A stretch of DNA of 64,000 nucleotides from an uncultured Lachnospiraceae bacterium (lineage in GTDB: Bacteria > Bacillota > Clostridia > Lachnospirales > Lachnospiraceae), in the NCBI GenBank assembly GCA_946403625.1, contig CAMJAP010000004.1, forward strand, positions 1 to 64,000. Direction: 5' to 3'. Under the pieces are notes generated by a model, which was not told the origin of the DNA, made no database searches, and saw only the letters and a list, made by a program, of their open reading frames with translations. Positions 20,115 to 45,522 of this stretch are shown piece after piece. The position numbers and the translations under genes are program-made. The first letter of the stretch is position 1; each line of letters starts with the position of its first letter.

Positions 20115-20720
20115 TCAGATCTCCAAAAAATTCTTAAGTATCTTCAGTCCCACCTGTGAACTCTTTTCCGGATGGAACTGGGTAGCGAAGACATTGTCTT
20201 TTTCTACTGCCGCATGAATATGTGTACCGTATTCCGTGGTCGCGATCACGATATCTTCGTTCTGTGCAGCCAGATAATAGGAATGCACAAAGTAAACATA
20301 GGAGCCTTCATCAATTCCGTGCAGCAATCTGCTTTCTCGGGGAAGATGCAAGGAGTTCCATCCGATCTGCGGAACCTTCAAACCTTCCGTCGCCGGAATC
20401 CGCTTGATCTGTCCCGGGAAGATAGATAAACCTTTTGCACCCGGACTTTCTTCACTGCTGTCAAACAACAGCTGCAATCCCACACAGATCGCCAGAAAAG
20501 GCTTTCCGGAATCGATACTTTCATGGATCACATCGGTCAATGCATATTTTTCCAGATTTGCCATCGCGTCTCCGAACACGCCCACACCCGGAAGGATCAC
20601 CTTTTCGGCATTGCGGATCTGTTCCACATCGCGCGTCAATACCGCCTCCTGTCCCAGGGCTTCGATAGCTTTTACGACGCTTTTGGTATTCCCTGCGTCA
20701 TAATCCAATACTGCGATCAT
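20115..20720 (-). CDS. hisH: Imidazole glycerol phosphate synthase glutaminase subunit
   Basis: '[11 protein letters not shown]', '[16 protein letters not shown]', '[10 protein letters not shown]'. Confidence 0.95.
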
Positions 20721-20761: not shown

Positions 20762-23548
20762 CTAAAACTGATTGCTGTCAATCTCCAGGCTCACATTGGC
20801 ACCGTTACTGCTGGCATTTCCCACTGCCGGATTGTTCTGCGTTACGGGAATTTCCAGTGTAGTGATCGGTTCTTGTATTTCCTGCGGTGTTGCGCTTTGC
20901 TCCAGATACTGTTGCTCTTCCGGCAACAAATCCGGTAAGTTTTCCGTCCCGGTCGGTGTCGGCGCAGGAATCTCGATGGTCGGCTCTTCCTCCTCCGGCT
21001 GCGGTAAAAAGGCGGAGGGGTTCACGCTCAATTCATCCAGCACCGGCTGCAGGATGGCTTCGTTTACTTCATCCTGCATCAGTCGATACGGCTCACCTTT
21101 TGCAGCAGCCTCAACCTTTCCGGTATAATCCGTGATCGAATAGGTCAGCGTTTCTCTTGCTTCCTCTTCGCTCATATCGAAATCACCGTTCAATGCGGCA
21201 ACGATCTTGATATAGATCTCATCGAGTTCCGGAGCAACATTCAGTTCATTCGCTTTGTCTTTCAGATCGTCATATCGTTTGACGCCCTGCAGCAAAGCAT
21301 CCAATGCCTCGGCACGCATACCCATCGCACGATAGTTCTCGTAAGATTCGTACTTGCGATCCAGCGTTACCAGGAGTCTGGAGCGTTCATATATCAGGCG
21401 GTCGCTTTCGTTTAATTCCTTTCCGTACATAGTCAGGAATGCCGTCTTGTAATCCTCGTTATAGTAAGCCTTTCTGGCCTGGCTCAGCGTAAGCAGCGCC
21501 GGTACAAACATCATGATCACCATGATCACAGCCAGAACAGAGAACGACAACATAAAGGTCCGAATGATATATTTCTTCGGAATCTTTTTGGAATTGTCCG
21601 GTTCCGCAGGCTTCTTTTCTTTCTTCGGCTTTTTGGGTTTCTTTTCCTTCGGCGGCTTGGGCGGCTTTTCTTTCTTGGCCTTCTTTTCTTTCTTCTTTTT
21701 CTTTTTGCCCTTGCCGTCCTCCTCGGCATCGATCTCTTTGAGGATCGCTTCGTTCTCTTCGGAAAGCTTGGTCTGCTTGCCTTCGGGAACTGCTTCGTCT
21801 TCTTCCTCTTCCGCTGTCAATGCCTGTAATAATCTTGCAAAGAATCCGGGCTTTTTCTTGCCCCCATCGTCCGTTTCTTCCGCAGTTTCTTTCGGAGCTT
21901 TCTTCTTTCCGAACAGCCCACCGAACAACCCGCCTTCTTTTTTCTCTTTCTTTGCTTTTTTCTTCTTTTTGCCGGCGCCTTCTTCGTCTTCGGATTCTTC
22001 CTCCTCCATCGCATCCATACCGGCATTTTCCATCTGTTCCAAAATGCTGTTATCCAGCAATTCGTTATTATCGGATTTCTGCAAAAAATCTCCCAGATCG
22101 CTCAGATCCGGATCGCTCTCGCCCATTTCCTGCAGGATGGAAACCACATCCGTATCATCGTCCAGCGGATCCGGCTGTTCTGCATCTGCCGCCGCTGCAC
22201 GCAGTTTTTCCTCGATTTCATCGATGCCCATATGTTCCGCATCGTCTTCCGATCCGCCCAGAACACCTTCCAGATCAAATCCGCCGCCCAAAAGAGGCAG
22301 ATCATCCAGGGGATCATCCATATCCGTACTTCCGACATCCGCTTCGGATTCCGGCAGATTACCGTCCAGGCCCATCAGGACATTGATCTCTTCCTGGCTC
22401 ATGGAATCGTCAGCCACAGGCATATCTTCCCCGGCGTTTTCTTCACTACTCTCTTCACCACCGCCGCTCATAGAAGCCACAAGCGCCGCAATATCATCAG
22501 GATTCATGATCTTGTTGGGATCGTTATCAGACTCCGGCAATTCTTCCTCCTCAATGCTTTCTTCTACAACCGGTTCTTCTGCGGGTACATCTTCACCACC
22601 GTTCATCGAAGCCACCAGTGCCGCGATATCGTCCGGGCTCATCATTTTGTTGGGATCATCGTCTACAACCGGAGCTGCAGGTTCTTCCACAACCGGTTCT
22701 TCCGCAAGGGTCTCATCGCCGCCGTTCATGGAAGCCACCAGTGCCGCGATATCGTCCGGGCTCATCATTTTGTTGGGATCATTGTCTACAACCGGAGCTT
22801 CAGGTTCTTCTGTATCCGTTTCTTCTACAACTGCTTCTTCAGCGACCGGTCCTTCCGCAGGCGCTTCTTCACCGCCGTTCATGGAAGCCACCAATGCCGC
22901 AATATCGTCCGGGCTCATCATCTTGTTGGGATCATCGTCCACAACTGAAGCTGCAGGTTCTTCTGTAACCGTTTCTTCTACAACTGCTTCTTCAGCGACC
23001 GGTTCTTCCGCAGATGTTTCGTCACCACCATTCATTGATGCGATCAATGCGGCGATATCATCCGGATTCATCATCTTGTTGGGATCATCACTGACCACCG
23101 GTGCCGCAGGTTCTTCCGGCAACGGTTCTTCGGTAACGGTATGCGCAGGTTCTGCAGAAAAAGGAGATGCATTCACGATCGGAGCATCGGAAACTGCAGC
23201 ATCAGTATCTTCCTCCTCCGCCATGATCGTTTTGCGATAGATTTCTTCCGGGATTTCATCAAAGATCTTCATCGGGAAATTTTCGGTGGAAGGCTGATAA
23301 TCGCTGTCGGTAAACAGTTTGTCGTCAGCAGATTCCGAAAAGATCTCATCCTGCACCGCTTTCGGGACATCAAAAGAAGTCGGATCCGCATCCTCTTTTT
23401 CTGCGTGTCCGATTCTTTCCTTTTTCACGGTATTCTCAACCTGCGGGGTTACCGGCTTGGATTCGGCGGCTGTCCCCTGCCCGATGCCGGCCATCTGCTG
23501 TTGTGCAGCTTTGAGCAGTTGGTCCAGGCGGTCTTCTTCTGATGCCAT
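20762..23548 (-). CDS. Large single-TM protein with five near-identical DPNKMMSPDDIAALVASMNGG repeats plus one MSQEEINVLMG motif, lysine-rich juxtamembrane segments and helical C-terminal domain
   Basis: Continuous 928-aa ORF; repeats read directly; one TM 'FMLSFSVLAVIMVIMMFVPALLTL'. Confidence 0.8.
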   Translation of the reverse strand: MASEEDRLDQLLKAAQQQMAGIGQGTAAESKPVTPQVENTVKKERIGHAEKEDADPTSFDVPKAVQDEIFSESADDKLFTDSDYQPSTENFPMKIFDEIPEEIYRKTIMAEEEDTDAAVSDAPIVNASPFSAEPAHTVTEEPLPEEPAAPVVSDDPNKMMNPDDIAALIASMNGGDETSAEEPVAEEAVVEETVTEEPAASVVDDDPNKMMSPDDIAALVASMNGGEEAPAEGPVAEEAVVEETDTEEPEAPVVDNDPNKMMSPDDIAALVASMNGGDETLAEEPVVEEPAAPVVDDDPNKMMSPDDIAALVASMNGGEDVPAEEPVVEESIEEEELPESDNDPNKIMNPDDIAALVASMSGGGEESSEENAGEDMPVADDSMSQEEINVLMGLDGNLPESEADVGSTDMDDPLDDLPLLGGGFDLEGVLGGSEDDAEHMGIDEIEEKLRAAAADAEQPDPLDDDTDVVSILQEMGESDPDLSDLGDFLQKSDNNELLDNSILEQMENAGMDAMEEEESEDEEGAGKKKKKAKKEKKEGGLFGGLFGKKKAPKETAEETDDGGKKKPGFFARLLQALTAEEEEDEAVPEGKQTKLSEENEAILKEIDAEEDGKGKKKKKKEKKAKKEKPPKPPKEKKPKKPKKEKKPAEPDNSKKIPKKYIIRTFMLSFSVLAVIMVIMMFVPALLTLSQARKAYYNEDYKTAFLTMYGKELNESDRLIYERSRLLVTLDRKYESYENYRAMGMRAEALDALLQGVKRYDDLKDKANELNVAPELDEIYIKIVAALNGDFDMSEEEARETLTYSITDYTGKVEAAAKGEPYRLMQDEVNEAILQPVLDELSVNPSAFLPQPEEEEPTIEIPAPTPTGTENLPDLLPEEQQYLEQSATPQEIQEPITTLEIPVTQNNPAVGNASSNGANVSLEIDSNQF
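22371..23095. repeat. Intragenic tandem motif repeats encoding FliM N-terminus-like motifs
   Basis: Units begin (plus-strand reading) near 22461, 22596, 22719, 22872 and 23025; divergent sixth copy at ~22371-22411. Confidence 0.85.
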
Positions 23549-23640: not shown

Positions 23641-23666
23641 AAAAGCCCCCCGAAGGGGGCAAAAAA
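23641..23666 (-). terminator. Rho-independent terminator between cheV and the repeat protein gene
   Basis: aaaaagcccccc-gaa-gggggcaaaaaa; GC stem flanked by A/T runs, could work in both directions. Confidence 0.8.
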
Positions 23667-24629: not shown

Positions 24630-25400
24630 CTACAGAAGTGTCAGTTCCGAACGCTTCTCCCCATAACGCAAGGTCATTTTGAGTGCTTCGATCGACGATG
24701 CGGTTGCTGCATCCACTTCGACGATCAGGACGGCCTCTTTGCTTCCGCCGGCCGGAATGGTTTCCAGAAACATGGAAAATTCATCCAATCGTAATGTACG
24801 CAATGCCGGCTTGGAAACACTGTTGTTAATGCGGAAATTGAACTTTGCACCCTTGCCCGCCATATCCAGGATCACATCGCTTGCACCTGTGTTTTGTATC
24901 GTATAGCGGAACACGATCAGCGAACTGCCTTCCGTTGCCCGTACAACACCCTGCCAGTCATTGGTATCGGTATTCTGCGGATAGGTGGCACACACCTCAT
25001 ACCCGGCATAGTTGATCTCGAGATCCGGTTCTTCCAGAAAATCATCGATATCGGTATAGACCGCCACCTGCGCCGGTTCCGAACCGCTGCCGGATCCGTT
25101 CTCTCCGGAGCCTTCCGGTGTTTCCGGCTCCTCCGGGATCTTTAACGCCTGATTGATCGCAATCTGCGCCTGTACCTGCGCACGGCGTTCCAGTTCCTGC
25201 CGGTGTTCTTCGATTTCTTCCGCTGTAACCGTGGTCATCTCATAGTTTGCATCATACTGTAAAAGGAGATGCGCTGCATACTCCTCCACCTGATGCATTT
25301 CTTCGTCACTCAGTTCCGGGATCGCGTTGGTTGTGCAGGCGCTTAAGCTGCACATAAGAACAGCCGCCCCGCTCAAAAACGCACATTTTAACCTTCTCAT
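24630..25400 (-). CDS. Putative lipoprotein with Ig-like/DUF4352-like C-terminal region
   Basis: Lipobox 'CSLSACTT'; C-terminal 'FRYTIQNTGASDVIL...' pattern. Confidence 0.65.
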   Translation of the reverse strand: MRRLKCAFLSGAAVLMCSLSACTTNAIPELSDEEMHQVEEYAAHLLLQYDANYEMTTVTAEEIEEHRQELERRAQVQAQIAINQALKIPEEPETPEGSGENGSGSGSEPAQVAVYTDIDDFLEEPDLEINYAGYEVCATYPQNTDTNDWQGVVRATEGSSLIVFRYTIQNTGASDVILDMAGKGAKFNFRINNSVSKPALRTLRLDEFSMFLETIPAGGSKEAVLIVEVDAATASSIEALKMTLRYGEKRSELTLL

Positions 25401-25435
25401 AATAGTATTATGTTACCACATTTTGCCTAACTTGT

Positions 25436-26947
25436 CTACACAACTATTTCAGATCCGTTCTCTAATTCGAACCAGAATTCCACGCCGTCTTCGTGATTTT
25501 TTACGCCGTAATCCTGCTTTAGGGATTCCATGATCGCCTTCACGATGGACAGTCCCAAACCGCTGCCTCCGTACTCGCGGGTGCGCGCCTTATCCACCTT
25601 GTAAAACTTCTCCCAGATGCGCTGCAGACTGTCTTCCGGGATCGGCTCACCGGTATTAAATACGCTGATGCGTATATGCTTTCCGTCTTCATTGCACTGC
25701 GCCCTGACCACGATCTCCTTCTTTCCGCCACAGTGATGCACGGCATTGGAAATGTAATTGCGCAATACTTCTTCCGTCTGGTATTCATCCGCCCAAACGT
25801 ATTTTCCGACACTTTCTTCGTAGGTGATCGTGATGCCCTGCTGCTCCGTTAACGGTGCAAAGGACTGTATGCAGTGACCGATCAGTTCGTTGATGTCAAA
25901 ACGCTCCATCTGCATCGCATCCGCGCCGGATTCCACCTGACTTAACGAGATCAAACGCTTTACCAGATGGTTCATCTTGTGCGTTTCGTCCATGATCACA
26001 TCGCAATAATAATCCAGGCTCTCACGGTCATCGATGATGCCTTCCTTCAACCCTTCCGCATATCCCTGGATCAGCGCGATCGGAGTTTTCAATTCATGTG
26101 AAACATTGGCGATAAACTCTCTTCTGCGCTCGTCCTCATTTCGTCTGGCATCCACATCCTTTTGCAGTTCGAGATTGGCGGTTTTCAAATGGCTGATGGT
26201 TTCTTCCAGACGATCGGACATCTGATTCATATTTTCGCCGAGCACCGCGATCTCGTTTTGTTCATGCCCATGATACTTGGTCTCAAAATTCAGATTGGCC
26301 ATTTCCTTGGAGATATCGGCAAGTTTCATGATGGGATCCGTGATGCGGCTGCTCACACCCCAGATCACGATCGCCGCCAACACTATGGCCGCCAGTCCGA
26401 CATAGAGCAAAAAGACATTGGACATGTGCACGCTGTCCCGGATGCTTTCCAGAGCAGTCCGGATCATAAAAAAGCAGTCCTCATCCAGATGTCCCCACAT
26501 GGTGACATATTCGGATTCCGTCACCGGATCCTGCATGTAACTCAGCGTGTAAGCACCAGTGGTAAAGATGACTTTTTTGGAAAGTGTATCCCTTGCGAAC
26601 ACCACATCACGCAATTGTCGGTTGATCTGTTCGGGATCTTTGATCGTCGAATACAGCGTCTGCGAACTGGAATCCGTGATGATAAAATTGACATTATAGA
26701 TCGTGCACAGATGATTGATCTGCGCTTCCGTCTCGGGAGAAGTAAGCGTGTTGTCGTCATGGGCCTGCTGCAACAGATGATAGACTTCCAGCAGGTTATC
26801 CCGTTTGGACTGGACATAATATTTTTCCAGAAAAAACACATTGATAAACCAGCACATAAAAATCGTGCCGCTCAGCAAAAGAATAAAAACCTTGGCCAAT
26901 TGTTTCTTGAGTGAATACCTTACCCGCTGTTTTCTGTCGGTCCTCAT
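25436..26947 (-). CDS. Sensor histidine kinase with HAMP domain
   Basis: 'FIANVSHELKTPIALIQGYAEGLKEG' H-box; 'GGSGLGLSIVKAIMES' G-box; two TMs. Confidence 0.95.
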   Translation of the reverse strand: MRTDRKQRVRYSLKKQLAKVFILLLSGTIFMCWFINVFFLEKYYVQSKRDNLLEVYHLLQQAHDDNTLTSPETEAQINHLCTIYNVNFIITDSSSQTLYSTIKDPEQINRQLRDVVFARDTLSKKVIFTTGAYTLSYMQDPVTESEYVTMWGHLDEDCFFMIRTALESIRDSVHMSNVFLLYVGLAAIVLAAIVIWGVSSRITDPIMKLADISKEMANLNFETKYHGHEQNEIAVLGENMNQMSDRLEETISHLKTANLELQKDVDARRNEDERRREFIANVSHELKTPIALIQGYAEGLKEGIIDDRESLDYYCDVIMDETHKMNHLVKRLISLSQVESGADAMQMERFDINELIGHCIQSFAPLTEQQGITITYEESVGKYVWADEYQTEEVLRNYISNAVHHCGGKKEIVVRAQCNEDGKHIRISVFNTGEPIPEDSLQRIWEKFYKVDKARTREYGGSGLGLSIVKAIMESLKQDYGVKNHEDGVEFWFELENGSEIVV

Positions 26948-27630
26948 TCTTTTTCCTTAACCTCAAATTTATACCCCAGTCCCCAGATGGTCTGGATCAG
27001 ATCTCCTTTTTCGCCCAATTTGCTGCGCAGTTTTTTGACATGGGTATCAATGGTTCTTGCATCGCCGAAATAATCATAATTCCACACACTGTTTAAGATC
27101 TTTTCGCGAGACAGCGCAATGCCCTGATTCTCCATAAAGTAGGTTAATAATTCAAATTCTTTATAGGACAGCTCGATCATTTCGCCGTCCACTTCCACGG
27201 AATGCGCGGTTTTGTCGATCACTACGCCGCCGGCTTCCATACGCCCGTCCGCGGTCGCGCCGGTGGTACGGCGCAGGATGGCTTCCACTCTGGCCACCAG
27301 GATCTTGGGGCTGAAGGGTTTGGAAATATACTCGTCCACGCCCAGCTGAAAGCCGAGCAGTTCGTCCCGTTCTTCACTTCTTGCCGTGAGCATGATGATC
27401 GGGATCTGCGAAGTTTTTCGGATCTCCTTACACACTTCCCAGCCGTCCATCTTGGGCATCATGACATCCAGAATGATGAGTGCAATGTTTTTGTCCTCAT
27501 AAAAAAGATCCAATGCGGCACTGCCGTCTTCGGCTTCCGTCACCTCGTAACCGCTCTTGGTCAAAAAGTCTTTCACCAGCTTACGCATACGTGCTTCGTC
27601 ATCCACGATCAGGATCTTGTTCTTTTCCAT
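26944..27630 (-). CDS. OmpR/PhoB family response regulator
   Basis: 'ILIVDDEARMRKLVKDFL', 'LIILDVMMPKMDGWEVC', C-terminal winged helix 'ARTIDTHVKKLRSKLGEKGDLIQTIWGLGYKF'. Overlaps the kinase gene by 4 nt. Confidence 0.96.
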   Translation of the reverse strand: MEKNKILIVDDEARMRKLVKDFLTKSGYEVTEAEDGSAALDLFYEDKNIALIILDVMMPKMDGWEVCKEIRKTSQIPIIMLTARSEERDELLGFQLGVDEYISKPFSPKILVARVEAILRRTTGATADGRMEAGGVVIDKTAHSVEVDGEMIELSYKEFELLTYFMENQGIALSREKILNSVWNYDYFGDARTIDTHVKKLRSKLGEKGDLIQTIWGLGYKFEVKEKE

Positions 27631-27701
27631 GGCAAGGTATCCTCCGAAAAAACATATTGATATATAGAATTTACACCGGAATTATGTGTAAAATGTGAAA
27701 T

Positions 27702-28352
27702 TCATTCGTTTTCGATATTTAATGCCCGTTCTTTTTCGCGAACGACCTGTTCCCGCTGTTGCAGTTCCATTTCCCATTCGGCATAACGATCCTGCAGCAC
27801 GCGTTCGTAATTCAGAATATTCGGATTGTCGCTTACCCCTGCAATGGCCAGCATGGCGATCACCGCGATCAAAAGAAATACGATAACGATATGCGAAATG
27901 CTCCTGCCGGTACGCTGCCGTTTCAGATCGGCACGCATCCGACGCATGGTGTCTTTCAGTTCATTATAACGGCTGGTGGTTTCTTTCAGTTCGGTATTGT
28001 CCTGCAGCAGATCGGAGGGCAGCCCCGGGATCTCACCGTCGATGTTCTCACGGTTGTTCTCCAGATATTCCCGGATGTGCAACAGATAGGAATAGCCTTC
28101 CGCGGTATGAAATACATTGCCTTCCAAAGCCTTCACATACAGGGTATAGACCAGCTGCGGACGGCGGTAATCCAGCTGTCGCTCCAGCCTGCGGATCTTG
28201 TCCCTCTCCGTGACGGCCGCTTCGGCGGATACAACATCCGGATACGAAAAAAATCCCTGCTCGATACGGCCGGTTGCCTTGGGCTCAACAGGTTCCTGTG
28301 CCTGCTTACGAGTCTTTTTCTCGCTTGTTTTTTCGGGCTGTTTCGTATCCAT
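27702..28352 (-). CDS. Hypothetical coiled-coil membrane protein
   Basis: Charged N-terminus, one TM 'SHIVIVFLLIAVIAMLAIAGV', C-terminal coiled coil. Confidence 0.6.
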   Translation of the reverse strand: MDTKQPEKTSEKKTRKQAQEPVEPKATGRIEQGFFSYPDVVSAEAAVTERDKIRRLERQLDYRRPQLVYTLYVKALEGNVFHTAEGYSYLLHIREYLENNRENIDGEIPGLPSDLLQDNTELKETTSRYNELKDTMRRMRADLKRQRTGRSISHIVIVFLLIAVIAMLAIAGVSDNPNILNYERVLQDRYAEWEMELQQREQVVREKERALNIENE

Positions 28353-34931: not shown

Positions 34932-35073
34932 TAAATGTCAAAAAGTAACGATATTCGGTTATTTTATGGCTGATTTTCATGAAATTCTGATAAAAGACAA
35001 CAACAGAAAAACGCACCACATCAATAAGATATAGCGCGCCCTTCCTCCCTTCTAATGCCCGAAGGCACTAAAG

Positions 35074-35405
35074 TGGACCTGGCGGGATTTGAACCCGCGT
35101 CCGAAACATCCGCCCCTGCCCTTCTACCATCGTAGTCAGTGGATTAACATTCCCTCTGCCGCCCCGTCACAGACACCGTAGCGGTTTCAGTAGCTTCATA
35201 GATCAGCCGTATGAGCAAAGCTTAACATACGCGTTTCCTACAAACCGATGCCCTGACCCTGTCGTGTAGGTGCGTCAGGCAGGACAGCTGCCCTTAGGCA
35301 GCGAGTGCTAAATTATCTTCAGCGTTTAGTTTAATTTTGGTATTTAACGCATACCTGCGGATGGCTTCTTCAGCTTAAGATACCCCGTCGAAACCTGTCA
35401 AGCCC
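35074..35405 (-). ncRNA. ssrA: Transfer-messenger RNA (tmRNA)
   Basis: Minus strand starts GGGCTTGACAGGTTTCGACGGGG and ends GCGGGTTCAAATCCCGCCAGGTCCA; acceptor stem pairs; predicted tag AEDNLALAA-stop; adjacent to smpB. CCA not encoded. Confidence 0.93.
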
Positions 35406-40397: not shown

Positions 40398-43286
40398 TTA
40401 TTTCGATAAATATTCCTGCATTACTTTTCCGGCCACCGGTGCTGCTTTTTCACCACCGCTGCCCGCATTCTCCATGATCACCGTAACCGCGATCTGCGGA
40501 TCCTCCGCCGGTGCAAATCCCGTAAACCATGCGTGGGACTGCGCTTTGATCGAGGAGAACTCGGCCGAACCGGTCTTACCGGCTACCTGAAAAGGCAGAT
40601 CGTTTAATCGTTTACCGGTACCGGTCTGACATACACCGATCATCAGGTCCGTCAGGATCTCTGCCTCGTCCGCACTCATTACCGTTCCGTATTCTTTCGG
40701 CTCGTAGCGTTTCAGGATCCGTCCGTCCGCCGTCACCACCCGCTCGATCACATAGGGTTGCATCATGACACCGCCGTTTGCGATGGCCGCCGTCACCAGA
40801 TTGATCTGTAACGGGCTCACCTGGGTCTTGTCCTGACCGATACAGATCTGCATCATCTCATTGGTGTTCAGATCTTTGCCCATACGGATCAGACTCGGAT
40901 TGTTATCCAGATCAAACAACAGCGTTTCGTTAAAATGCATCTCTTTGAGCATGTCTGCAAAGCGCTGTTTGTCCAGAGTTACACTGATATTGGCAAACGA
41001 AGAGTTGCAGGAGTTTGCAAAGGAATCATGCAGATCCTCTTCTCCGTGTACCGATCCGTGAAAACACTGAATGGACGCATCGTCTTTGGTAAAGGAACCG
41101 ACGCAGTCAAAATGATAATCCTTATAGTCCTCCGGATTCTCGCGAATGTATTCCAGTGCCGTAAAGATCTTGAACGTGGAACCCGGCGGATAGATACCCT
41201 GGGAAGCACGGTTTAATAATACGCCGCTTTCTTCGTCACCGATCACCGTATCCCAGATCTCTTCAATGTTATTCGGATCGTAAGACGGTTTGGAAACCAT
41301 TGCCAGGATCTGCCCGGTCTTGACGTCCGTTACCACGACCGCGCCACGGTTGTTTCCCAGCGCCTCGTAAGCCGCTTCCTGCAATTCGGGGAGGAGTGTC
41401 GTATGCACATCATTTCCCGGATCCTTTTGCTCCTGCATATCGTTGCTTAATTTTTCCGTCAGCGTAATGTCGGAAGTGATCAGATATCGCTGCATTCTGC
41501 GTTCGATACCGTCACCGCCTTCCGCCGCATAACCGACCACCTGGGCAAAGGTATTTTTAAACGGATAGTTTCGTACCTCGGTTCCGTCTTTTGTAATAGT
41601 TTCCGCCAGCACGGTACCGTCAGCCGCATAGATGGTGCCGCGGGTATTGTCCTGTTCCAATATGGCAATACGTTTTCCGTTATAGGAATTGGTCATCACA
41701 TCACCGGCCTGCGTCAGCATGAAACGAACGATATTCAAAAACATCAGCACATAGACCAGTGCATACACACCGCCGTTTATGGCAATGCATCGCTTCTGAC
41801 GGTATAAGAGATCCGCTTTTTCTTCGTCATCGTCCTCTTCTTCGGCAAAGAATTCCTCTTCCCGTTCCGCCAGTTCCTCATCGCTCAGATAGGACGCTTC
41901 TTCACTGTCCAGAAACTCCTTCCATTCCGCCTCTTTGTCTTCCCTGGCATCTTCGTCCTCGTCATACTCTTCCATACGGATCATATAGATGCCCTGCAAA
42001 ACACCAAACAGTACGATGGTCACCAAAGCGGAGGTTCCGCCGTTAGAGATCAGAGGTAAGGTCACACCGGTCAGCGGAATAAATCCGGTTCCTCCGCCGA
42101 TGGTCAGAATCACCTGCACACCATAGCAGATACCCAGGCCCACGGCTACCAGACGATAAAACGGATCCCGTACACGGCCGGCCATCATCAGCGCCGCCAG
42201 TACGATGGACAAACACAGCAGGATCAACAGGATGGCAAAAAACACGCCCATCTCTTCACCGACTGCCGAGAAAACAAAATCTTCTTCCACATAAGGGATC
42301 GTCTTCGGCGAGCCGTGCCCCAACCCCATACCAAACCAGCTGCCGGTGGCCAGACCGAATAACGACTGCGTCAGCTGATAGCCTTTGTTATCAATATCCG
42401 CCCAGGGATCGATCCAGATCTTCACACGGGTCTGCACATGAGAAAACAGGAAATACGAAACCACCGCTGCGCCTGCCCCACCGATCATCCCGGCGATCAG
42501 ATAATGATGTTTGCCGGATGCTACATAGACCACGGCGACATACATCACAAAATAGATCAGCGCCGACCCCAGGTCTCTGGACGCCACCAGTGCCAGCACA
42601 TGGATCGCCGCAAGTCCCGCGGACAGAAAGACGCGCTTATGCTTTACATTCTCTGCAAGCAGACCTGCGATAAAGAACGCAAATACTACTTTGATCACTT
42701 CGGAGGGCTGAAAGATCAATCCCCAGAAATTGTAATTGAGCCTGGAGCCGTTAACCATCCGTCCGCGAATGAGCACCAGCATCAGACCACCGATACCCAC
42801 ACCGCCGTAAACCCATGGGATCCGCTTTAAAAAGGTCCATTTCTGTATGAGCATGGGAACGATCATAAAGAGAACCAGTGAGGATCCGATAATGATCAAC
42901 TGGCGTTTTCCATGATTGGGATTTAATCGTGCGAGGATCACAAAACCGATCGCCATCAGCATCTGCATCTGACAAAGCAGCAGGCGGTGCACGTCACGAT
43001 AGATGGCCCGAAAGATCATCGGGAAAAATAAAAGTACCAAAAATTCGATAAAGCCAAGCAGGGCCACCGGCCGCAACAGATCGGTATTTCCCGTCTTGGC
43101 GTGATTTAAAAAGATGTTGCCGAGGCCCAATACATAAAAGCCCAGGGTCAGTAATTCCAGCCACACATAAATACCCCGCCGGAAATCATCATCCCGACGT
43201 TTTAATGCCACAAAAGACGATGACACATAGAACGCCATCATCACAACGATCACATATTTCGAGATATCCAGTATCAAAGAACTCAT
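40398..43286 (-). CDS. Fusion protein: SEDS (FtsW/RodA/SpoVE) glycosyltransferase plus class B PBP transpeptidase
   Basis: One uninterrupted ORF. SEDS part with 'EEDFVFSAVGEEMG' and 'LPLISNGGTSALV'; PBP part with 'PPGSTFKIF' (SxxK), 'SCN' (SxN), 'KTGSAEF' (KTG). ATG at 43286. Confidence 0.92.
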   Translation of the reverse strand: MSSLILDISKYVIVVMMAFYVSSSFVALKRRDDDFRRGIYVWLELLTLGFYVLGLGNIFLNHAKTGNTDLLRPVALLGFIEFLVLLFFPMIFRAIYRDVHRLLLCQMQMLMAIGFVILARLNPNHGKRQLIIIGSSLVLFMIVPMLIQKWTFLKRIPWVYGGVGIGGLMLVLIRGRMVNGSRLNYNFWGLIFQPSEVIKVVFAFFIAGLLAENVKHKRVFLSAGLAAIHVLALVASRDLGSALIYFVMYVAVVYVASGKHHYLIAGMIGGAGAAVVSYFLFSHVQTRVKIWIDPWADIDNKGYQLTQSLFGLATGSWFGMGLGHGSPKTIPYVEEDFVFSAVGEEMGVFFAILLILLCLSIVLAALMMAGRVRDPFYRLVAVGLGICYGVQVILTIGGGTGFIPLTGVTLPLISNGGTSALVTIVLFGVLQGIYMIRMEEYDEDEDAREDKEAEWKEFLDSEEASYLSDEELAEREEEFFAEEEDDDEEKADLLYRQKRCIAINGGVYALVYVLMFLNIVRFMLTQAGDVMTNSYNGKRIAILEQDNTRGTIYAADGTVLAETITKDGTEVRNYPFKNTFAQVVGYAAEGGDGIERRMQRYLITSDITLTEKLSNDMQEQKDPGNDVHTTLLPELQEAAYEALGNNRGAVVVTDVKTGQILAMVSKPSYDPNNIEEIWDTVIGDEESGVLLNRASQGIYPPGSTFKIFTALEYIRENPEDYKDYHFDCVGSFTKDDASIQCFHGSVHGEEDLHDSFANSCNSSFANISVTLDKQRFADMLKEMHFNETLLFDLDNNPSLIRMGKDLNTNEMMQICIGQDKTQVSPLQINLVTAAIANGGVMMQPYVIERVVTADGRILKRYEPKEYGTVMSADEAEILTDLMIGVCQTGTGKRLNDLPFQVAGKTGSAEFSSIKAQSHAWFTGFAPAEDPQIAVTVIMENAGSGGEKAAPVAGKVMQEYLSK

Positions 43287-43293
43287 ACTATAA

Positions 43294-45522
43294 TTATTCT
43301 GCGCCTCTTGCCCAATGCCCTCTGGTGGTCTGTCCGTTTGCAAACGGCAGATTCGCACTACCGTTTTCCCACAGATCCGCAAAGGCACCTGCTACGCGCA
43401 ACACCTCCTTTTTTTCTTCCACGGTAAACTCCAGGCGGTATACCGCTGCCTGTCCGCGTGAACGCAATGCAGGCAATTCCGCATGTAATGATAACGGAAG
43501 GCAATTATACATTACATTATAGCAATACCGGTGATTGGGCAGGATCGGAAACGAATGTCCTTTTTCGTCCCGGATCGTATATACGCCTGCCTTCCGGTCA
43601 CATCCTTTTAACGTATTTAAAACGCAGTTGGCACTGTACATTACCGGCTGATATCCGTAGATCACGCATTCTGCCTTCTCCGGATCCGTAATATTACGAT
43701 ATTCTTTTCCCGACCATTCGGAACTGATCGTAAAATGCTCCGCATAGTCACTTAAGATCTGTTGCGTATTACGGTTAAATACATACAGCCCGGTATCTCC
43801 GTGCAATTTTTCTTTTGTAAACAAGCCTTCCGCAGCACCAAGCGCATCGATGCCGTTGACATACACACCGTCAATTGCGTAGTTTGCCGCTGTTTTCAAT
43901 CGCGTTTTGATGCGATCACTGTCTTTTTGCCGCAGTATCTCCGGCAGCCGGAGATACAACTGTTTTCCGAATCGGTGAACCTGATCGGTCAACACTTTGC
44001 TGTCCGATTCCGCAAAAACATCCAGGTCCAGGATCACGCCTTCGACGGCATTCATCTGCAGCAGTTCGTTTAATGTATCCGTATTTTTCAAACCAACACG
44101 CAATACCGGAGTGATCTGCGTATCCGTACTTATGTTATTTTGCCACAAAGACTCCGGTGTCTGTGCGGTCTGCAGATCCGTGCGTTTCGGGTATAGTTTT
44201 TCCTGCAATTGTGCCAGTGCATTGCGGCGCAGTTCATTGAGCTGTCCCACGGGAACGAAAGCATTCTGATCGGTATCGACATTGCATTCCGTCAAAGAGA
44301 AGATCGTACCGCCGGTCTTGGACAATTTTGCCGCAAACTGCTCTTCCGTCATGGCTTTGTTCTGTGCCGCCTCTGCAGGTGCGCCTTTTACGGTAACAAC
44401 GCCATCATTTGCGCTCACTTTAATCTGCACCGGTTCGCCTGCATAGACGCGTGCCTGCATCTTAACAGGAACCGTCTGCTTCTCTGCAAGATATTTTTGA
44501 AAGACCTTTTGCTTTTCCTCTTCCGAGACTTTTCCGTAAGCCGGATTGGAAAGCGAAACCATATTCTTTCCGTTATGCTGCCGTAAATAGCCTTCCTGTT
44601 TTCCGCTGCGCAGGTACAGGTCTTCCAGTTTTTTCTCGTCTTTCGGAGATACCTGATAGCTGCCGTTTTGCAAATACAGATCAATGTATTTTCGATATAC
44701 GGCAGTCACACCGGCGGTATATTCCGGCGCCTTCATACGGCCTTCGATCTTGAACGAATCGATCCCCGCATCGATCAGCGCGCCGATCTCATGCAGGCTC
44801 CACATATCCTTCAGGCTCAGCGCATACTGCGGCTTTCCGCCATCCATACGATATTGCTGTCTGCACGGCCCCGCACAGCGTCCGCGATTGCCGCTACGGC
44901 CTCCCGCAAAGGAACTGAGCAGACACCGCCCGGAATACGAATAACACATAGCACCGTGGATGAAACATTCCACCTCGATACCGCGTGCTTTGAATGCTTT
45001 TAATTCCTCATAGGATAATTCCCGCCCCGGAACCACGCGGCTGACATGCAATCGTTCCAGCCATATGGCACCGTCCGCCGACAAAACGGACATCTGCGTG
45101 CTGGCATGAAGCGGCAGCGAAGGATAACGCTCATGTAAAAACGCGAGCAATCCCAGATCCTGCACAATGATACCGTCCAGTCCCTGCTCGTACAGGGGAT
45201 CCAGAATATCCGCCACCTGTGCCATTTCGTTATCTCGCAAAAGAATATTGCATGCCAGATAGACCTTGCGACCAAAGGCATGGGCATAAGACAACGCCTC
45301 GGATAATTCCGCGGCATTCAGATTCTTGGCATACGCACGTGCGGAAAAAGCCTCGGCTCCGAGGTATACCGCATCGGCACCGGCATTGATCGCGCCGATC
45401 ACACCCGCCAGTTCTCCCGCAGGCGCCAGCAATTCCGGTTTCTTTTTTGTTATGGATAAGGCAGCCGTTGGATCAGGCTGCCTTGTAATTTTTTGCTCTA
45501 TATTATCGTCTGTTTTTTTCAT
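43294..45522 (-). CDS. Peptidase U32 family protein with DUF3656-like C-terminal region
   Basis: 'PELLAPAGELAGVIGAINAGADAVYLG', 'ECFIHGAMCYSYSGRCLLSSFAGGRSGNRGRCAGPCRQQY'. Start set at MKKTDDN; longer ORF to 45600. Confidence 0.9.
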   Translation of the reverse strand: MKKTDDNIEQKITRQPDPTAALSITKKKPELLAPAGELAGVIGAINAGADAVYLGAEAFSARAYAKNLNAAELSEALSYAHAFGRKVYLACNILLRDNEMAQVADILDPLYEQGLDGIIVQDLGLLAFLHERYPSLPLHASTQMSVLSADGAIWLERLHVSRVVPGRELSYEELKAFKARGIEVECFIHGAMCYSYSGRCLLSSFAGGRSGNRGRCAGPCRQQYRMDGGKPQYALSLKDMWSLHEIGALIDAGIDSFKIEGRMKAPEYTAGVTAVYRKYIDLYLQNGSYQVSPKDEKKLEDLYLRSGKQEGYLRQHNGKNMVSLSNPAYGKVSEEEKQKVFQKYLAEKQTVPVKMQARVYAGEPVQIKVSANDGVVTVKGAPAEAAQNKAMTEEQFAAKLSKTGGTIFSLTECNVDTDQNAFVPVGQLNELRRNALAQLQEKLYPKRTDLQTAQTPESLWQNNISTDTQITPVLRVGLKNTDTLNELLQMNAVEGVILDLDVFAESDSKVLTDQVHRFGKQLYLRLPEILRQKDSDRIKTRLKTAANYAIDGVYVNGIDALGAAEGLFTKEKLHGDTGLYVFNRNTQQILSDYAEHFTISSEWSGKEYRNITDPEKAECVIYGYQPVMYSANCVLNTLKGCDRKAGVYTIRDEKGHSFPILPNHRYCYNVMYNCLPLSLHAELPALRSRGQAAVYRLEFTVEEKKEVLRVAGAFADLWENGSANLPFANGQTTRGHWARGAE

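Follow-up and report, generated by a model that had tools for sequence, protein, structure and literature searches.

In the usual view, CheY~P acts via the N-termini of FliM and FliY in the C-ring, which provide one motif per subunit. CheY-P binds this EIDALL motif in the alpha4-alpha5 groove, and the FliM N-terminus is described as a tether raising the local CheY-P (PMC9126983). Among the CheC/FliY phosphatases acting on CheY-P, FliY combines an EIDALL motif with a CheC domain in a single protein. ChePep, a chemotaxis regulator found in Helicobacter and other Epsilonproteobacteria, is rich in repeats and works outside the core array; it is not known to be membrane-bound or to have repeats resembling EIDALL. 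Little is known about flagellar placement landmarks in Firmicutes. The HubP/FimV proteins, which place chemotaxis arrays, consist of an extracytoplasmic domain, one transmembrane (TM) helix, a long cytoplasmic region that is acidic and contains variable repeats, and a TPR domain (PMC12918733).

The 64,000-nucleotide stretch of Lachnospiraceae DNA analyzed here (the window) carries a gene, given the working label TARGET, the product of which resembles each of these systems in part. Its motifs follow the FliM/FliY pattern Hydrophobic-S-[QP/E/D]-x-[ED]-I-x-x-L-[LVF], flanked by acidic or flexible sequence, and their repeat format recurs in the internal copies present in the FliY proteins of a sister clade. 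Unlike those of FliM and FliY, however, the motifs are not N-terminal on a C-ring protein: five or six of them are located on a membrane protein having no CheC, FliM middle or SpoA domains, and the copies in the window show E/D, D/A and L/V exchanges. TARGET shares with HubP/FimV the presence of one TM helix, a predicted extracytoplasmic domain, acidic and probably cytoplasmic repeats, a helical domain that can be described as TPR-like and a tie to flagella and chemotaxis, whereas no LysM or FimV domain was found in it (Pfam), its predicted orientation is the opposite (N-in, with the helical domain outside, based on the positive-inside rule), its repeats are FliM/FliY-like and its host belongs to the Firmicutes. 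Like ChePep, it is repeat-rich and outside the core array, these two proteins being set apart here by their description and not by their sequence. As regards the CheC/FliY phosphatases, a second family carrying the motif (family 2, see below) adjoins cheC, whereas TARGET has no phosphatase domain. Searches of the full texts in an open-access library yielded no description of such a protein. We consider it fairly probable that TARGET is a membrane-anchored, multivalent docking scaffold of the FliM/FliY "EIDALL" type, the most likely function of which is to concentrate CheY~P close to the membrane.

Organization of the TARGET Protein

TARGET is a single-copy gene in its own genome and consists of an intact ORF of 928 aa with an ATG start (Table 1). 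The array described in the sequence-only reading, which comprised five repeats, a sixth motif, linkers, Lys-rich blocks, a TM helix and a helical domain, was confirmed in this ORF. The N-terminal element, which takes the form xE(D/E)YLDxLLxS in the family, appears to be itself reminiscent of EIDALLN. The five near-identical repeats have the consensus D(D/N)DPNK(M/I)M(S/N)PDDIAAL(V/I)ASM(N/S)GG, their DPN residues starting at positions 155, 206, 257, 298, and 343, and the sixth motif, at residue 383, reads MSQEEINVLMG. The linkers are acidic and rich in Pro, Glu, and Val (30% D/E and 4% K/R in residues 120-540). The 20 residues flanking the TM helix contain 5 vs. 3 K/R, the Lys-rich blocks being additional, which supports, as a rule-of-thumb prediction, an N-in topology with the helical domain outside.

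No real match with TARGET was obtained among the Pfam and NCBIfam models, including those of the FliM/CheC middle domain and of the SpoA (FliMN_C) domain, and PDB sequence searches run with the repeat and with the C-terminal domain returned nothing significant. The AF2 model of the C-terminal domain is all-helical, with a pLDDT >90 over most of its length and a pTM of 0.63. A Foldseek search of this model against the PDB gave no match at E<=0.001; several of the best matches, at E about 1, were designed TPRs, and there was no Pfam TPR match. Since the Foldseek matches reach only E about 1, "TPR-like" is used here to describe this domain and not to assign it to a family.

Table 1. Positions of the features of TARGET and its neighbors in the window, and of the other genes carrying the motif in their own contigs
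Feature	Position	Strand	Basis
TARGET, membrane-anchored carrier of a FliM/FliY-type (EIDAL-like) motif array	20762..23548	-	ORF and homologues
Conserved N-terminal element, MASEEDRLDQLLKA	23495..23548	-	N-termini of family members
Repeat 1, DDPNKMMNPDDIAALIASMNGG, aa 154-175	23024..23089	-	
Repeat 2, aa 204-226	22871..22939	-	
Repeat 3, aa 255-277	22718..22786	-	
Repeat 4, aa 296-318	22595..22663	-	
Repeat 5, aa 341-363	22460..22528	-	
Sixth motif, FliY-like, DSMSQEEINVLMGLDG, aa 381-396	22361..22408	-	Matrix scoring
Lys-rich block 1, aa 526-553	21890..21973	-	
Lys-rich block 2, adjoining the TM helix, aa 612-659	21572..21715	-	Predicts N-in
Transmembrane helix, aa about 663-688	21485..21562	-	Sequence; long N-terminal helix of the AF2 model
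Conserved all-helical (TPR-like) C-terminal domain, predicted extracytoplasmic, aa about 690-842	21023..21481	-	Alignments, AF2
cheV, conserved upstream neighbor, CheW domain and receiver with phosphorylation residues	23672..24574	-	Pfam, synteny
hisH, conserved downstream neighbor, followed by hisF	20115..20720	-	Synteny
Intrinsic terminator between cheV and TARGET, GCCCCCTTCGGGGGGC and T run	23645..23660	-	
FliY with internal motif copies, G298	L286:922-2403	-	
FliY with internal motif copies, G197	L277:814-2190		
Family 2 loci	L196:6064-7431, L198:5179-6627, L229:6209-7735, others (L203-L220)		

Selection on the Repeat Copies

The array was detected by TRF with a period of 123/153 bp and an 86-90% match, and a strict DNA pattern of the repeat gave 3 matches in the TARGET genome, as compared with 0 in the case of the reversed control. 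Pairwise comparisons of the repeat codons within the TARGET gene gave a pS of 0.57 and a pN of 0.056; when the copies within each of nine genes were compared and the results pooled, the values were pS 0.38, pN 0.047, and pN/pS 0.12. Linkers 1/2 vs. 2/3, which constitute a control consisting of a single pair of equal length, gave pS 0.21 and pN 0.097. Since the silent sites of the repeats have diverged while their protein sequence has remained nearly constant, each copy is under selection. Judging from these substitution patterns, the array is more than a product of chance or a merely young duplication, and the amino acid sequence of the copies is held. The number of motif copies defined by a regular expression ranges from 0 to 8 among the homologues present in the window's own genus, and since many members of the family, including close relatives, show no recognizable internal motif, the basic function of the family cannot depend on the array.

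Relationship with the FliM and FliY N-termini

The FliM and FliY N-termini of the genomes analyzed read LSQxEIDxLL and LSQDEINALL, and the window genome's own FliM starts with VGDILSQEEIDKLLSDMSKGD. When whole genomes were searched with a narrow HMM of these N-termini, FliM and FliY were found and the TARGET family was not found in the window genome; elsewhere, matches with the family were weak (E 0.14 in G017 and 2.2 in G233). Because of this weak detection, a softer matrix combined with shuffles was adopted. The motifs of TARGET and family 2 scored high with this matrix among the non-C-ring sequence windows (of about 110,000), the top of the list also including chance matches such as NrdR, CheV, and others. 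In comparisons with shuffles of each member's own N-terminal region, 46 of the 74 members scored at p<0.05 and 25 at p<0.01. The best-scoring segment of TARGET is the sixth motif (MSQEEINVLM), the closest of the six to the LSQxEIDALL pattern, and near-canonical forms occur in the family (MSQSEIEALL, MSEDEIDRLL, and MSEEEINRLL); in some of the members with a significant segment, the best score falls on the conserved YLDxLLNS element at the N-terminus instead of on an internal motif. The window repeats themselves depart from EIDALL at three places, since they read DIAALV (E to D, D to A, and the last L to V).

A converse matrix, based on the TARGET repeats alone with the SQ-type motifs left out, was run across 120,172 windows taken from other proteins. 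Ranks 1-3 (26.6, 25.6, and 22.8 bits) were occupied by internal linker repeats of a true FliY, that of G298, SNKMMSQEEIEALLAGDSAPAEPAAEE (SNKMMSQEEIEALLAG), and rank 4 (16.5 bits) by a FliY N-terminus. Next came two BMP-type lipoproteins (16.3 and 15.9) and an ABC protein (13.8); most of the remaining entries among the first 30 were FliM/FliY N-termini. Since flagellar loci were overrepresented among the proteins scanned, these ranks express a preference and not a genome-wide rate. In the sequence-only reading, the repeats were taken for a multiplied form of the docking motif of the FliM/FliY N-termini, located at the inner face of the membrane and linked to flagella and chemotaxis. This idea stands up well to comparisons at the sequence level, and the motif relationship, which exceeds chance, is strongly supported.

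Motif Copies in FliY and in a Second Family

In some Lachnospiraceae of a divergent clade having FliM and no TARGET, FliY has no N-terminal motif and carries internal copies instead (SNKMMSQEEIEALLAGDSAPAEPAAEES): three in G298 and two in G197, G122, and G287, in an acidic linker rich in Pro, Ala, and Glu. The G298 protein is a true FliY (CheC and FliMN_C domains, Pfam). These internal copies match the format of the TARGET repeats, NKMMS(Q/P)(E/D)(E/D)I(E/A)AL, and multiplication of the motif has therefore also occurred in a true C-ring protein.

A second, unrelated family of carriers was identified upon searching ten genomes with the repeat profile. Family 2 proteins have two N-terminal TM helices, a coiled coil and an acidic linker, and their extreme C-terminus reads ...SDPNKxMSPDEIAALFANM, with frequent extra internal copies. 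They were found in 21 of the 294 genomes of the order-wide set, all of which also carry TARGET and FliM, the weakest of these matches being doubtful (G307 is probably a false one); divergent members are present in G063 and G296, and there was no match in the window genome. In nine genomes of genus g35, the family 2 gene lies directly downstream of cheC (PF04509, E 5e-30), and parA-parB occur near it in several genomes. A match between family 2 and Prok_Ub (ubiquitin-like) was rejected as a local helix-cap resemblance only.

Distribution of the TARGET Family

TARGET belongs to a previously unnamed Lachnospiraceae family, for which there is no Pfam or NCBIfam model. A search with the single protein yielded homologues in 31 of 60 relatives; the genomes of the same genus in which there was no match (e.g., G021 and G032) were searched with the single protein only. 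The named contigs carrying homologues belong to Lachnospira, Roseburia, Pseudobutyrivibrio, and other Lachnospiraceae. The alignment shows a common plan, consisting of an E(D/E)YLDxLL N-terminal element, an acidic region, Lys-rich blocks, a TM helix and a C-terminal helical domain. A distant homologue, L043, the C-terminal domain of which is about 32% identical, has six motif copies, and that of G233, which belongs to another genus, has four. In two other distant members (L055 and L056), a Cys-rich, zinc-ribbon-like stretch precedes the conserved ESYLDxLL element.

A profile of the C-terminal domain was then searched against 294 genomes distributed throughout the order, each of which was at least 90% complete. 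Matches were obtained in 65 genomes, every one of them in GTDB family f1, and FliM (PF02154) was present in all 65. Among the 121 genomes of f1, 65 have both TARGET and FliM, 11 have FliM alone, 45 have neither and none has TARGET alone (Fisher p 4e-23, a value which ignores phylogeny and is uncorrected for shared ancestry). Co-loss of TARGET and FliM was observed within genera g31 and g58. In 10 of the 11 genomes with FliM alone, FliM is divergent (E 1e-26 to 1e-34), an ordinary one being present only in G188; FliM also occurs without TARGET in other families of the order. TARGET is thus a flagellum-associated gene, which accompanies the flagellar genes and disappears along with them. According to the sequence-only reading, a family occurring mainly in genomes devoid of chemotaxis genes would have refuted its proposal; with FliM as the marker, the outcome was the opposite.

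Gene Neighborhood

The order cheV-TARGET-hisH-hisF is conserved in nearly all the loci long enough to show both sides. A strong intrinsic terminator separates cheV from TARGET in the window, and the conserved order therefore does not mean that they form one operon here; co-transcription of the two genes was rejected on this account. No convincing sigma-28-type promoter was found at the right spacing upstream of TARGET.

Several other features of this region can be mentioned. In alpha4 of CheV, a strongly conserved basic sequence, MRRKGExLGADAQLxKPEIG, replaces the docking pocket of CheY, which suggests the existence of another conserved partner surface. A cluster conserved upstream of cheV in Lachnospiraceae (window 24630-28352, minus strand) includes genes encoding a TM protein (27702-28352), an OmpR-type regulator, a histidine kinase and a lipoprotein-like protein without a family (24630-25400). 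The window also carries a 996-aa ORF (40398-43388, minus strand) with FtsW/RodA/SpoVE (SEDS) and penicillin-binding transpeptidase domains, apparently a SEDS-PBP fusion, and a tmRNA gene (35071-35405, minus strand; Rfam RF00023, 125 bits).

Candidate Ligands of the Repeats

In the fliM-fliY locus of the window's genus (G000:C66 / C75, L236-L239), fliY is followed by fliO, and in other Lachnospiraceae genera by cheY. The loss of CheY from this genus, which was suspected on these grounds, was ruled out: CheY is encoded in the window genome, away from fliY (G000:C55:9022-9372). The residues of the FliM pocket, V95, F106, and V108 (E. coli numbering), are kept in all the CheY sequences compared, whereas at the same positions of alpha4-beta5-alpha5 all 27 of the CheV receivers compared have R/K95, Q106, and T/S108. 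It is therefore difficult to see the repeats docking onto the receiver domain of the neighboring CheV, the recruitment of which had been proposed in the sequence-only reading. The adjacency of the two genes is conserved, the receiver keeps its phosphorylation residues and the conserved basic alpha4 (RRKGE) could meet an acidic partner; but in an AF2 model of the in-frame cheV-TARGET read-through (with the three stops taken as residues), in which the CheV domains were well scored, helices appeared in only three of the repeats and were weak (block pLDDT about 54-57), the remaining array was below 50, and no confident docking was obtained, this being a weak test with an unpaired alignment. CheV is disfavored as a ligand because the hydrophobic FliM pocket is absent and the AF2 fold shows no confident docking, and the terminator between the genes also speaks against it; we regard this possibility as highly improbable.

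The main rival of CheY~P as a client is FlhG, which is reported to interact with FliY in B. subtilis and, in monotrichous bacteria, with FliM through the N-terminus of the latter (PMC12826062). If the motifs recruited FlhG (and flagellar assembly) instead of CheY~P, TARGET would be a landmark for the number or place of flagella comparable to HubP/FimV, the general plan and array-placing role of which (PMC12918733) fit this picture, as does the occurrence of family 2 beside parA-parB; the tie to FliM would hold equally. However, the linkage to cheV, and that of family 2 to cheC, point to the CheY branch, internal arrays are also present in FliY, which carries a CheC phosphatase domain, and the TPR-like domain of TARGET is predicted to lie on the opposite side of the membrane from that of HubP, so that FlhG seems to us an unlikely client. 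S-P-D-D is a generic helix-capping sequence. Instead of a docking motif, the repeats might be helices with generic caps, lying in an acidic region of low complexity that expands by slippage, their likeness to FliM/FliY reflecting convergence on the S-[PQ]-[DE]-[DE]-I cap, and the presence of DPNxxLSPEEI in BMP-type lipoproteins of two genomes without FliM (G281 and G311), the weak Prok_Ub match and the variation in copy number within one genus are all compatible with this explanation. It is rather improbable in view of the low pN/pS between copies, the fact that the repeat matrix ranks almost nothing else above the internal repeats of FliY and the N-termini of FliY/FliM, and the presence of the motif at the extreme C-terminus of family 2, which is found only in flagellated genomes; the chance matches, moreover, have no AALF/ALLA half of the motif. 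The CheY branch is favored by the proximity of cheC to the family 2 genes, by the arrays in FliY and by the position of cheV next to TARGET.

Possible Role and Implications

According to the CheY~P scaffold model, the N-terminal half of TARGET would be a long, acidic, probably disordered cytoplasmic region bearing several short helices like those with which FliM and FliY catch CheY. The TM helix would keep the protein at the membrane, while the TPR-like helical C-terminal domain outside probably anchors or places it. TARGET would most likely concentrate CheY~P near the membrane and serve as a buffer, a relay or a delivery platform, which may compete or cooperate with the C-ring motifs. The repeats suggest the existence of a second, multi-site catcher at the membrane, either for the CheY signal or for some other protein recognizing the peptide; if this client were FlhG, TARGET would become a candidate for a landmark positioning flagella in Firmicutes. 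The repeats are short enough to be synthesized as peptides for a simple binding assay, and a series of copy numbers occurs naturally within one genus.

More tentatively, flagellated Lachnospiraceae may have a layer of motifs interposed between their chemotaxis array and their motor, in which at least two unrelated membrane architectures, and FliY in one clade, carry multiplied EIDALL motifs binding several CheY~P at once. In such a layer, the signal would be buffered, placed or dephosphorylated on its way to the C-ring, and the number of copies would act as an evolvable gain control. The layer would comprise TARGET family members with up to eight motif copies, family 2 proteins ending in the motif and a FliY with three internal copies. 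To our knowledge, multivalent tethers for the motor signal have been described in no model organism. If this proposal is true, many dominant gut bacteria handle their motor signal through multivalent tethers of this kind.
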